Positions 24,046-43,960 of a DNA stretch of 64,000 nucleotides are shown here, piece after piece. Source of the DNA: Methanosarcina barkeri str. Wiesmoor (GTDB lineage: Archaea > Halobacteriota > Methanosarcinia > Methanosarcinales > Methanosarcinaceae); the NCBI RefSeq assembly GCF_000969985.1, contig NZ_CP009526.1:992001-1056000 (forward strand), written 5' to 3'. The number at the start of each line of letters is the position of its first letter. The first letter of the stretch is position 1. The notes below the pieces were generated by a model that made no database searches, had not been told where the DNA came from, and was given only the letters and a program-made list of their open reading frames with translations. The position numbers and the translations under genes are program-made.

Positions 24046-24100
24046 TTCAAATTGTTTTGAAATAGGAAATTTTATATAGATTGTTTCAAATATATTTGAA
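24046..24100 (+). promoter_or_regulatory. Two identical-arm dyads before the thioredoxin-like gene
   Basis: TTCAAA-TTGT-TTTGAA (24046-24061) and TTCAAA-TATA-TTTGAA (24085-24100) have the same perfect 6-base arms and 4-base spacer, 39 bases apart. A TATA box (TTTATATA, 24070-24077) lies between them, so the second copy covers the likely start site: the arrangement of a repressor operator. A one-mismatch copy occurs upstream of the second DGC gene (41867-41882). The arm type is compatible with an ArsR-like winged-helix repressor; none is encoded nearby. Confidence 0.6.
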
Positions 24101-24124
24101 ATAAGAACTATTGAGGTGAACACG

Positions 24125-24358
24125 ATGAAAATCGAAATACTTGGTACAGGATGTTCAAAATGTAACAAAACAAAAGAAATGGTAGAGAAAGCTGTAAAAG
24201 AAGCAGGTGTAGATGCTGAAATTGTCAAGGTAGAGGATTTCGATATAATTCTGGGATACGGAGTCATGGTCACTCCTGCTCTTGTAATTGACGGAGATGT
24301 TAAAGTCGCAGGTAAAGTTCCAAGCGTTGATGATATCAAAAAATGGATCAAAAAATAA
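24125..24358 (+). CDS. Small thioredoxin-like redox protein (CSKC active site)
   Basis: 77 residues from ATG 24125, behind GAGGTGA (the in-frame GTG 24116 overlaps this ribosome site). The fold is the minimal thioredoxin/glutaredoxin type (TRX2 / MTH895-like): IEILGTGCSKCNKTKEMV with the CxxC at residues 10-13, and the cis-Pro motif VMVTPALVIDGDVKVAG. Such proteins reduce disulfides or pass electrons or metal/thiol ligands to partners. They are typically encoded with PF03773 permeases, DGC proteins and ArsR regulators, as here. Regulation is probably by the double dyad upstream. Confidence 0.88.
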   Translation: MKIEILGTGCSKCNKTKEMVEKAVKEAGVDAEIVKVEDFDIILGYGVMVTPALVIDGDVKVAGKVPSVDDIKKWIKK

Positions 24359-24494: not shown

Positions 24495-24887
24495 GTGAAA
24501 AACATGCCAGAAGAAGCAAAATGTGCATGCGGCTCGGCGAATGTGGCAATTTTCCCATGCGCGGGAGCAGCAAATGTCGGTCAGCTTTCAAACAGAATCG
24601 CAATTGAACTCGAAAAGCAGGGCATAGGAAATCTTATGTGCACTGTCGGGATCGGTGCAAGAGCTCCGGGACTTATGAAGTCTGCCGAAGCTTCTGATCG
24701 TATTATAGCAATTGACGGTTGTCCTGTAAACTGCTCTAGCAAGACCCTTGAACTTGCAGGGTTTAAAGTTGATAGACAGATCGTAATTTCCAAACTTGGG
24801 ATCAAGAAAAGTAAGGAAAAAGACCTCAAAGACCAGGAAGTAACAGATACTCTCGGGAAAGTTATGGAAATTCTTCAATCCGAATGA
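24495..24887 (+). CDS. DGC-domain (putative zinc-binding) protein
   Basis: 130 residues. The family signature is clear: FPCAGAANVGQLSNR (residues 19-33), RAPGLMKSAEASDRIIAIDGCPVNCSSKTLELAGF with the name-giving DGC, and IVISKLGI. Extra Cys residues in EAKCACGSANVA at the N-terminus form a possible metal site. The function of the family is uncertain; a role in metal or metalloid/thiol homeostasis is inferred from its company. Start GTG 24495 is four bases after AAGGT; ATG 24504 is the alternative. It lies 136 bases after the thioredoxin-like gene and is probably in the same unit. A second DGC protein is at 41.3-41.7 kb. Confidence 0.82.
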   Translation: MKNMPEEAKCACGSANVAIFPCAGAANVGQLSNRIAIELEKQGIGNLMCTVGIGARAPGLMKSAEASDRIIAIDGCPVNCSSKTLELAGFKVDRQIVISKLGIKKSKEKDLKDQEVTDTLGKVMEILQSE

Positions 24888-25335: not shown

Positions 25336-25626
25336 ACTTGAAACCCTCAGTTAGTGCATTTACAATTCAGTTTTGATAATGTTTGAGCTTTAAATTATTG
25401 TTTTCGTACCAGTATTGAATGTCGGTGTGACAATGTCTCTCGGTGTGACAATGTCTCTCGGTGTGACAATGTCTCAATCTAATTTCACTCTAATCCAAGT
25501 ATTATTATATATATTTACTTAGAACGACAAATTTATATCTGTTAACAATTATATATTCATATATTGATATGATGCTAGTGTGAAATCTACAAAATAAGTG
25601 TGAACAACTGGAAGAAGGAACTCAAA

Positions 25627-26598
25627 ATGGTCGATATATTTTACCCTCTTCAATGGATTGCAGACAAATTAACATACGAGGTTTTCGGGATTGCACCTGA
25701 TACGCACCTTGCAGCGAGTGTTAACTTTGTTATTTACGATGTGATGAAAATTTTCTTGCTGCTTGCAGTAATGATTTTTTTCATTTCTTATCTCAGAACC
25801 TATATTACTACTGAAAGAACCCGTAAAGTACTTGGAAACAAAAAAGGGATTAAGTATCACATCCTTGCGTCTCTTCTTGGAACAATTACTCCTTTTTGCT
25901 CGTGTTCATCCGTTCCGATTTTCATTGGGTTTGTAGAGGCAGGCATACCTCTTGGAATTACTTTTTCCTTCCTGATAACCTCACCTCTTGTAAATGAAGC
26001 TGCAGTTGCTGCTCTCTGGGCAACTCTAGGTCTTAAGGCAACATTAATCTATATAGTTTCAGGGATTATACTGGGAGTTCTTGGAGGTGTTTTAATTGGC
26101 TTCCTTAAGCTGGAGAGGTACGTGGAGGATTTTGTTTATAAGATAAAAGTGGGACCGCAGACTGCAAAACCCGAAGAGTTAACCGTAAAGGAACGAGCAA
26201 ATATTGCCTTTGAAAACGTAAAAGACATTGTGGGAAGAGTATGGATCTATGTAATTATAGGCGTTAGCATAGGAGGCATTTTCCACGGATATGCACCTGA
26301 GGGAATTTTAGAGAAATATGCAGGTAAGGATAATCTGCTTGCGGTGCCAGTTGCCGTTCTGATTGGAGTTCCACTGTACTCAAATGTTATGGCAATGATT
26401 CCTATCATAGAAAGCTTGATTGGGAAAGGTCTTCCCATAGGAACTTCTCTTGCGTTCCTCATGTCCGTTACTGCCGTTTCCCTTCCTGAAATGGTTATCC
26501 TTAAAAAGGTGCTGAAAAAAGAGCTAATAGCAATTTTTGTCTTAATCGTGGGAGTTTCGATAATCTTTACAGGATATCTATTCAATATACTGTTATAA
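25627..26598 (+). CDS. PF03773-type permease (UPF0718 family)
   Basis: 323 residues, eight or so membrane helices. The family hallmark CSCSSVPIFIGFVEAGIPLG (about residues 92-111) is followed by SFLITSPLVNEAAV; the second half repeats the pattern with GVPLYSNVMAMIPIIESLIGKGLPIGTSLAFLMSVTAVSLPEMVIL. The two halves point to an internal duplication. Relatives are found with thioredoxin-like CxxC proteins and ArsR regulators and are suspected exporters of metalloid or thiol compounds, though the substrate is not established. ATG 25627 follows AAGAAGGAACTCAAA; the frame opens at GTG 25600. TTCAAA-type dyads are not evident directly upstream, so its regulation may differ from that of the thioredoxin-like gene. 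Confidence 0.85.
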   Translation: MVDIFYPLQWIADKLTYEVFGIAPDTHLAASVNFVIYDVMKIFLLLAVMIFFISYLRTYITTERTRKVLGNKKGIKYHILASLLGTITPFCSCSSVPIFIGFVEAGIPLGITFSFLITSPLVNEAAVAALWATLGLKATLIYIVSGIILGVLGGVLIGFLKLERYVEDFVYKIKVGPQTAKPEELTVKERANIAFENVKDIVGRVWIYVIIGVSIGGIFHGYAPEGILEKYAGKDNLLAVPVAVLIGVPLYSNVMAMIPIIESLIGKGLPIGTSLAFLMSVTAVSLPEMVILKKVLKKELIAIFVLIVGVSIIFTGYLFNILL

Positions 26599-37947: not shown

Positions 37948-38550
37948 GTTACTGGAATCCTTTTTAATTGTTATCTAAGTTGAAAATTCATATCTTTTTT
38001 CGGAAACAAGGGTAATTAATTGTTTTGTCTCGAAAAGTGAATATTAAGCAACTTCTTACAAGATATACTGAAGCTTTTTTAATATTTCCAAAGGGCGTTA
38101 TAACTCTTAATTATTTCAAATTATTATGTATTTTATCCCAAAATTATTTCGAGTTTTTAATTTCTTTTATTGCAGCTATAGCTATATATTGTATACAGGT
38201 GATCCATTATTTTACTTCAACTTCGAATTTGTTTCATCTTACGTAATCGTTCCACAATACCAATATAGAATTGGAATTTACTCAATGTTTAACCTTTTGC
38301 GTTGCCTGCTGTTGTATTATGTATTTGCCTTTCAAATGGTTTTGAGTCTGCGAAATCATTTCAAAATACAACATTTCAAATTATTATGAAATAAGTAGAT
38401 ATTTATAATTTTAGATATTATTGCTTTAAGACTATATTGTTTTATTAAATCAGTTTTTAATTCCTAATAGTTTTTCCTGACAGTAAATAAGGAAAAGAAA
38501 GATTTGTCAAAAGATATTTCAAGAAAAAGAAAAAAGGAGTCATTCTCAAT
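37948..38550. other. Intergenic AT-rich region upstream of the hydantoinase-like gene
   Basis: No gene is supported. The 15-base sequence TTTCAAATTATTATG occurs at 38114-38128 and 38374-38388, and related TTTCAAA stretches lie between; it could be a regulatory repeat. AAAAAGGAG lies upstream of the next start. Confidence 0.45.
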
Positions 38551-41734: not shown

Positions 41735-41815
41735 GGATATTACAACCTTTTATGAGAAAGCTAAACATTAGTGGGAAATACAATCGTTATGAGTAATACA
41801 ACCTTTAATGAAATG

Positions 41816-41882
41816 TTTCATAACCTTTAATGAAAAACTGTTTCATAACCTTTAATGATAAGTTGTTTCAAAAATAATTGAA
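41816..41882 (-). promoter_or_regulatory. 25-bp repeats and TTCAAA-N4-ATTGAA dyad before the DGC gene
   Basis: TTTCATAACCTTTAATGA occurs at 41816 and 41841, and a third register at 41866 begins TTTCA and continues as the dyad TTCAAA-AATA-ATTGAA (41867-41882), one mismatch from the dyads at 24046 and 24085. On the minus strand a TATA-like TTATATTA (about 41911-41904) lies upstream of the dyad. The recurrence at 25-bp intervals suggests cooperative binding sites. Confidence 0.5.
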
Positions 41883-42024
41883 ATGAAAACGGTGAGAAAG
41901 CTAATATAATTTCCGATATTACTGCCAGCTAATTAGGCTCAGTTTGCCTGTCCCAAAAACGCCAAAAAATGCCAAAAAAATGCCAATAACACTTATCACG
42001 CTAAAAAATAAGAGAGGAGTAAAA

Positions 42025-42525: not shown

Positions 42526-43264
42526 GTATTCCCACCTCTTCGACTAGCTTTCCCTATTTAATATATGGTGCGGTTTGCTAAAAAGAATTTGGTAAAACAG
42601 ATTTTTTAGAGCCTTCTTCAAGAATTGAAATTTTAAAATTAAAGTTTATAATCAGACTTTTTAATCGAAATTTAGAGCGAACCTTACTAAGTTTAAACCT
42701 TGACAGGAACTGCTTTTACCCTGAACTCTGAATGCTTTCTCGCTTGCACCTATAATGAATCTGGAGCAACACAAATCCACAGGTTGCGCCTTAACTCCTA
42801 TCAAGAAGACAGCTACTTTTAAATATGAGTTACTGGTATTATTGAAATAATCTTTGAAGAGCATTCTGGGAATACTGGGCGAATAAGCCTGGGTAATCCT
42901 GAGTCAATAAACCTGGATAATCTTGTAATCACAAATTCAAAAAATTCCCTATTGAGTTTAAATGATAAGTTTAGTTCCCTATTAAATTTAAAATAATCAA
43001 TTAAATTTCATGTTAAGTTTCAATAATCAATTAAATTTCATGTTAAGTTTCAATAATCAATTAAATTTCATGTTAAGTTTCAATACTCAGTTAAATTACC
43101 GGTTAAGTTTCAATAATCAGTTAAATTACCGGTTAAGTTTCAATAATCAGTTAAATTACCGGTTAAGTTTCAATAATCAGTTAAATTACCGGTTAAGTTT
43201 AAAAAATGAGTTTAATTAGAGAGTTAGAATCTTGAGTGAAAATAAAGTTAATTAGTGAGTGAAA
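42526..43264. other. Intergenic region with a 30-bp tandem array before queC
   Basis: The array at 42991-43200 is listed separately. The segment 42660-42860 is richer in G+C than its surroundings and is open on the minus strand for 67 codons without a ribosome site. I cannot assign it; a small RNA is possible but not shown. Confidence 0.4.
42991..43200. repeat. 30-bp tandem repeat, seven units
   Basis: Seven head-to-tail units of CAATAATCA(A/G)TTAAATT followed by TCATG or ACCGG and TTAAGTTT start at 42991, 43021, 43051, 43081, 43111, 43141 and 43171. The first three carry TTCATG and the last four TACCGG, so the array grew by duplication of two variants. There are no spacers, so it is not a CRISPR. 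It ends about 65 bases before queC and may contain its promoter. Confidence 0.92.
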
Positions 43265-43960
43265 ATGAAGGCTATAACCCTCCTGAGCAGCGGGCTTGAT
43301 TCAGTTGCAGCGCTCGCAATCGCAGCGGAAGATTTTGACATTGAAATGGCTATTACCTTTGATTATGGGCAGAGAGCCAGAGAGAGGGAAATTGAGTACT
43401 CACGAAAGGTATGCGAATATTTCGGAATTGAGCACAGGGTTATAAAACTGGACTGGCTTTCGGAAATAACATCCACCTCTCTCGTTAACAGGGATGTTGA
43501 AGTCCCATCTTTATCGTTTGAGGACATTGGCGAAGCGGCCCCTGCAGAAATCACAGACGCTTCAGCAAAAGCTGTCTGGGTCCCTAACAGAAATGGGGTG
43601 ATGCTCAATATAGCAGGAAGCTTTGCCGAAAGCAGGGAATGTGAGTATCTCGTAGTGGGTTTTAACGGGGAAGAGGCAGGCACTTTCCCTGACAATTCCC
43701 TTGACTACGTGAAGGCAATGGACAGGGCTTTTTTCTATTCCACTCAAAACGGGGTAAAAATACTGGCTCCTCTGATTGAACTTGGGAAAACGGAAATAGT
43801 CAGAAGGGCTCTGGAAGCAAAAGCTCCTCTTGAGTACAGCTGGAGCTGCTATCGCGGAGAAGAAATTCCCTGCGGAGAATGCGAAAGCTGCGTGCGCAGG
43901 GCACGTGCGTTTAAAAACGCAGGTGTAAAAGATCCTCTTCTGGAAAGACTTGGAATTTGA
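43265..43960 (+). CDS. queC: 7-cyano-7-deazaguanine (preQ0) synthase QueC
   Basis: 231 residues. Converts 7-carboxy-7-deazaguanine to preQ0 with ATP and ammonia; in archaea preQ0 is inserted into tRNA position 15 and becomes archaeosine. The PP-loop ATP site is [12 protein letters not shown] (residues 6-17), followed by [12 protein letters not shown]; the zinc-binding Cys cluster lies in [22 protein letters not shown] near the C-terminus. ATG 43265 is preceded by GTGAGTG; GTG 43259 is in frame but weaker. It heads the queC-DUF366-queE-queD gene group. Confidence 0.95.

Follow-up and report, generated by a model that had tools for sequence, protein, structure and literature searches.

Does a shared control element join two DGC-protein loci of this Methanosarcina chromosome, and what kind of regulator would read it? 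The question arises in the window, a stretch of 64,000 nucleotides (chromosome 992001-1056000 of the 4.9-Mb genome G000), where a pair of dyads at one promoter and a single dyad at another lie about 17.8 kb apart. At the first promoter, putative operator dyad 1 (TTCAAATTGTTTTGAA, 24046-24061) is directly followed by a BRE/TATA region (GGAAATTTTATATAG, 24065-24079, plus strand), and putative operator dyad 2 lies between the TATA box and the predicted transcription start (TTCAAATATATTTGAA at 24085-24100, or TTTCAAATATATTTGAAA when taken as 24084-24101); neither dyad is assigned to a strand. The exact sequence separating TTCAAATTGTTTTGAA from TTCAAATATATTTGAA is TTTATATAG, and the dyad-to-dyad register is 39 bp with BRE and TATA inside. 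Both 7-mer arms of dyad 2, TCAAATA and TATTTGA, stand back to back. The initial annotation had described perfect-arm dyads with equal spacers flanking this TATA box, and both proved exact. Behind the pair come a small thioredoxin-like gene of the Thioredoxin_3 / MTH895-ArsE family (24125-24358, plus strand) and then DGC-domain gene 1 (DGC1; 24504-24887, plus strand), an order that relatives keep. Two genomes (G004 and G028; loci L062 and L063) have tandem copies of a half-site unit, ATTTGAAATAGAGAATGTT, in the stretch from the operator pair to the thioredoxin start.

The second locus is DGC-domain gene 2 (DGC2; PF08859; 41321-41734, minus strand). Its putative operator dyad (gene strand TTTCAATTATTTTTGAAA, 41866-41883, minus strand) lies at the predicted transcription start, about 16 nt 3' of a conserved TATA region (gene strand GGAAATTATATTAGC, 41900-41914, minus strand); both loci place dyads on the core promoter or predicted start, with the thioredoxin copies bracketing their TATA box. 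Alignment of DGC2 promoters across Methanosarcina gives ATTTCAA-N6-TTGAAA at a constant distance 3' of the TATA box. The copy at 41867-41882 had been reported as a one-mismatch form, which it is when compared with TTCAAA-N4-TTTGAA; against TTTCAA-N6-TTGAAA it has zero mismatches. Conservation gives the latter arms in place of the motif first proposed, with ATTTCAAATA/TATTTGAAAT as the genus consensus. Among Methanosarcina genomes with a match to DGC2, 23 of 29 retain the dyad before it (22 at no more than one mismatch, plus G008 in a near form), and three of the six genomes that are without it (G006, G009 and G029) have truncated or broken DGC2 matches. At 22 loci the dyad stands at one position relative to the TATA box, where simulated sequences with matched dinucleotide composition predict 0.31; this comparison is biased, since those loci had been picked for having the dyad, and a fair one sets 23 of 29 beside an expectation of roughly 0.4. 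A fourth DGC gene (chromosome 4561953) has no such dyad in its promoter. Short tandem repeats occur nearby, with GTTTCATAACCTTTAATGA units in the DGC2 leader (window 41800-41870) and TTAAGTTTCAATAATCAATTAAATT-like units before a queC-like gene at 43265 (window 42960-43200).

How far do counts of the motif distinguish these sites from chance? Within the window, five sites match TTCAAA-N4-TTTGAA at no more than one mismatch against 1.32 expected, and 3 of 100 shuffles reach five. Two of these near-matches (38331 and 38375) lie inside or at the border of a dispersed repeat (window 38200-38390), which has approximately 78% identical copies at chromosome 1354585, 1967740, and 2969916, and we discarded them as regulon sites. 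Genome-wide pattern searches found 10 exact sites for TTCAAA-N4-TTTGAA and 2 for the reversed control. Only a few of the 10 lie at promoters of plausible members: two are the thioredoxin pair, three arise from the dispersed repeat, and the others are mixed. We did not retain TTCAAA-N4-TTTGAA as the defining motif. TTTCAA-N6-TTGAAA has four exact sites in 4.9 Mb, namely dyad 2 of the thioredoxin promoter, the DGC2 dyad, and two that are coding (by their translations, in genes resembling a CBS-domain protein and an indolepyruvate oxidoreductase), which leaves the two DGC loci of the window as the only exact non-coding sites in the genome. A dyad before citrate synthase in several species was set aside as a piece of a larger AGAGGATT...AATCCTCT palindrome, a different element; the full conserved form, AGAGGATT-N8-TTCAAAGTTTTTTGAA-AATCCTCT, precedes citrate synthase in several Methanosarcina (loci L126, L124, L129, L131, and L122, near 1502) and looks like a separate operator or a 5' UTR hairpin.

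Conservation in register carries the argument where raw counts do not. The paired module, with its 39-bp register and the TATA box inside, is near-identical in 17 Methanosarcina genomes, in which the dyads average 1.75 and 1.81 bits per column and the TATA spacer 1.72, compared with 0.49 and 0.58 in the flanks; two further Methanosarcina genomes have a 40-bp register, and in another only one dyad is present. Across 186 Methanosarcinales genomes, about 35 exact pairs with AT-rich, TATA-like spacers were found, both within Methanosarcina and in other genera of its family; the reversed control matched in only 7 of the 186, even at two mismatches. Upstream of the related permease genes of named genomes, the pair was found at 54 of 65 usable Methanosarcinales loci (52 of them at 36 to 40 bp), while the reversed control gave 0 at the same loci, with about 0 expected. 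These loci include Methanolobus, Methanococcoides, Methanohalophilus, Methanomethylovorans, and ANME-2; permease relatives in Methanothermococcus and Asgard have no pair upstream. The distance from dyad to TATA box is kept where the distance to the start codon varies. Judged by this cross-species conservation at the sequence level, the arrangement is far beyond chance. The claim that the three sites exceed chance holds on these grounds and not on the window count, and the proposal of a shared operator linking the two DGC loci is supported by conservation at both.

The gene behind the module changes while the module persists. It precedes the thioredoxin gene in six genomes, the clade of the window (G000, G003, G004, G026, G028, and G030), and in other Methanosarcina it precedes a 350-amino-acid ArsP_1 permease gene, with thioredoxin and DGC genes behind it and, in some genomes, an ArsR gene as well. 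None of the ArsP_1 matches in the genome under study lies at the module position. The arrangement in the window is therefore best read, from these comparisons, as a permease lost and a promoter retained; the operator ancestrally belongs to the ArsP_1 permease operon. The ArsP_1-family permease gene of the window itself (323 amino acids; 25627-26598, plus strand) has no TTTCAA-type dyad and is probably a separate transcription unit. Relatives of that gene (loci L155, L156, and L152) carry a different, one-base-shifted operator class, ATATCAA-N6-TTGATAT, where the window has only a weak, degenerate site (ATATATTCATATATTGATAT, 25551-25570, no strand assigned). The same second class, and not the TTTCAA class, stands in front of a paralogous ArsP_1-Trx-DGC operon (L046 2636-2720) in an ars island at 3.945-3.967 Mb, together with the arsenite methyltransferase ArsM, the ACR3 arsenite exporter, and several ArsR genes. 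In the genome under study, the promoter with this ATATCAA-type element lies near C2 3958700. Elsewhere on the chromosome, an ArsP_1 permease gene is broken into two pieces by an in-frame TGA (G000:C2:566434-567512).

The encoded proteins were assigned to families by score. The thioredoxin reaches 109.5 bits against TIGR00412 MTH895/ArsE (curated cut-off 62), and its closest solved structure is MTH895 (1ilo). The two DGC proteins of the window score 114.9 and 93.3 bits against PF08859 (gathering cut-off 27); a structure model of DGC1 (mean pLDDT 78.5) found no significant PDB match. Against PF03773 ArsP_1 (gathering cut-off 32.3), the window permease scores 239.5 bits and the 350-amino-acid permease 263.7, and neither the SO_0444 Cu/Zn efflux nor the SaoE equivalog applies (about 100 to 111 bits against cut-offs of 300 and 325). 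Similarly, the operon ArsR does not qualify as a BigR sulfite-sensing repressor (35.3 bits against an equivalog cut-off of 155). These assignments and the paralogous operon of the ars island point to a metal(loid) or thiol detoxification role, as far as gene content can indicate, and make a metal or redox signal plausible. Other genes with the operator include a TauE/SafE gene beside DsrE/F/H-like genes, preceded by a second pair in two genomes (G007 and G009); a SAM-methyltransferase-like gene with a single dyad in G008 and G020 and a one-mismatch form in the genome under study; and a carboxymuconolactone-decarboxylase-like gene with a single dyad in the genome under study, G023, and G025. 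G020 has a further pair, at L306:5764-7609, before a permease-like gene whose N- and C-terminal halves appear to be separate.

What would read these dyads? From the observed sequence, position, conservation, and gene content, we infer that they are probably operators of a single ArsR/SmtB-family repressor, a winged-helix dimer unlinked in this genome, which would block promoter or start and come off in response to a thiophilic metal(loid) or to thiol stress. The BRE/TATA region of the thioredoxin-DGC promoter would be flanked by two dimers, the first adjoining it upstream and the second lying between TATA and start, and both TBP/TFB and polymerase would be excluded; at DGC2, initiation would be blocked by a dimer on the start itself. 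A ligand binding to repressor cysteines, most likely arsenite or an organoarsenical, or else thiol/persulfide stress, would cause release and induce a small detoxification/redox regulon comprising the ArsP_1 permease (lost in the clade of the window), the ArsE-type thioredoxin, DGC1, and DGC2, as well as the TauE/SafE, methyltransferase, and carboxymuconolactone-decarboxylase-like genes in some species. The ArsR/SmtB assignment draws on the match of the arms to the consensus core of the family, on ArsR genes placed divergently across the operators in ANME-2 and Methanolobus, on an ArsR at 581 kb that falls in that clade, and on the paralogous operon of the ars island. It is weakened by differences among the linked ArsR types, half-sites that are 2 bp closer than in the known operators, the lack of a dyad at the 581-kb candidate's own promoter, a long branch in the tree, and the hybrid site of the second candidate, a CACEI-type ArsR.

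The initial annotation had expected an unlinked repressor, and the search for ArsR-family genes gave none close to the window locus, the nearest being approximately 0.43 Mb away. The chromosome has no ArsR match between 581 kb and 1,460 kb, so the reader, if an ArsR, is unlinked. The best candidate on comparative grounds appears to be the ArsR at chromosome 581354-581719 (G000:C2), which adjoins a nikR-like gene and joins the clade of operator-linked ArsRs (tree support 99/97, with a long-branch warning). Within ANME-2c, an exact-dyad pair separates the permease from a divergent ArsR gene, whose start it immediately precedes; in Methanolobus and Methanomethylovorans, a DUF6951-ArsR unit is on one side of the pair and the permease on the other. 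A second candidate would be the CACEI-type ArsR of the ars island (3945749-3946063), a type present in 27 of 31 genomes and located within the operon in eight Methanosarcina genomes. An ArsR gene with the exact dyad in its own promoter had also been anticipated; none was found in this genome, and a related ArsR has the hybrid ATTCAA-N6-TTGATAT. In most genomes the CACEI-type promoter carries this hybrid, ATTCAA-N6-TTGATATG, right after the TATA box. Because of this hybrid site and the ATATCAA-N6-TTGATAT element at the paralogous ArsP_1 operon, the CACEI-type ArsR more likely reads the second class, with cross-talk possible. In a long form of this protein, the CAC motif is preceded by a cysteine-rich insertion such as ECKCKENNCSDCKGE, which is absent from the operon-borne short form (L045:5750-6064, L046:3104-3403, and orthologues). 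We tentatively suggest, at somewhat less than an even chance, that one ArsR clade reads a compact operator with no central spacer, usually as a TATA-bracketing pair, in parallel to the ATATCAA-N6-TTGATAT class on the paralogous ArsP_1 operon, and that near-identical export/thioredoxin operons are insulated from each other by a one-base change per arm.

A version of the ArsR reading in which a different ArsR acts, with the CACEI-type protein as single repressor of both TTTCAA-N6-TTGAAA and ATATCAA-N6-TTGATAT, seems to us rather doubtful. Its gene lies within the permease-trx-DGC operon of eight Methanosarcina genomes, its own promoter mixes both classes, and G017 and G019 have neither this ArsR nor the DGC2 dyad; however, G012 has the ArsR and no DGC2 dyad, in Methanolobus, Methanococcoides, and ANME-2 no CACEI-type gene was seen 5 kb or less from the pair, and the two operator classes remain distinct, each before different genes. 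The linked ArsR type varies by lineage (CACEI, MKIP, MNRK, or none), so the reader may be a third regulator that is unlinked. The constancy of the operator while the linked ArsR types change, and the many loci that have no ArsR in the 5 kb to either side, could even suit a regulator outside the ArsR family, e.g., a MarR/TrmB-type protein or an MsvR-like redox sensor, conserved and unlinked throughout Methanosarcinales, and the thioredoxin, DsrE, and TauE neighbors would fit a redox or sulfur signal. We regard such a regulator as unlikely, since the arms match the ArsR/SmtB consensus core and ArsR genes lie divergently across the operators in two distant lineages and within the operon in eight Methanosarcina genomes.

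Two further explanations dispense with a DNA-binding regulator. Transcripts would include part of any dyad near or past the start, and palindromes fold as RNA too, so the elements might be hairpins or processing signals of a 5' UTR. This is highly improbable: dyad 1 is upstream of the TATA box and hence not transcribable from the thioredoxin promoter, the arms are presumably too AT-rich for a stable hairpin, and it is the distance to the TATA box, not to the start codon, that is kept. Chance AT-rich palindromes would be compatible with a window count that is only mildly unusual and includes two of five near-matches in a dispersed repeat, but conservation in register across tens of genomes and the zero reversed-control pairs at permease loci refute this explanation and leave it a negligible probability.

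Operators of the ArsR/SmtB type are well described. Those of arsRBC, cadCA, smt, zia, and czr share the core TAxAxTCAAATA-xx-TATTTGAxTxTA (PMC6555750) and are known as "12-2-12" repeats (PMC8790569). Their TCAAATA/TATTTGA half-sites are identical to those of the dyads here, and in both cases one or two copies lie at the promoter or start, efflux and redox genes follow, and the regulator gene is divergent or unlinked. They differ in having N8 between TCAA and TTGA, with a 2-bp center, whereas every conserved copy here has N6, and here two copies bracket an archaeal BRE/TATA region in a fixed 36- to 40-bp register. The AzuR-nmtA system of Anabaena likewise has an unlinked ArsR/SmtB repressor and an inverted repeat in the target promoter (PMC8790569), as predicted here, but with a bacterial promoter, a metallothionein target, and 12-2-12 spacing. 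The ArsEFG organoarsenical system (function as cited in PMC9144182; the name ArsE comes from NCBIfam TIGR00412, "MTH895/ArsE family") also combines an ArsE-family thioredoxin with an efflux-type permease in one operon, a comparison drawn solely through the ArsE family; here the permease is ArsP_1 (Pfam), the third gene encodes a DGC protein, and the hosts are methanogens and ANME. MM2441 of Methanosarcina mazei is an ArsR-family regulator from the same genus linked to methylamine methyltransferase genes, and the text describing it mentions no palindrome, thioredoxin, or permease (PMC3510493). The open-access papers searched, a scope that excludes most subscription journals, gave no account of this operator or regulon. 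The operator type is already known, and the compact spacing, the fixed TATA bracket, the order-wide conservation, and the parallel second class were not found in that literature.

To our knowledge, mapped operators that keep a fixed geometry around BRE/TATA exist for only a few archaeal regulators, and methanogens and ANME-2 methane oxidizers have few known regulons for metal(loid) or thiol stress. The conserved pair offers a promoter ready for testing, with predicted targets and two repressors proposed by name, and a single-base difference in each arm would supply a natural specificity switch. It also places the poorly understood DGC and DUF6951 proteins in a likely stress regulon. A control element kept across Methanosarcinales, including ANME-2, before metal(loid)-type export genes points to a stress-response switch in methane-cycling archaea.
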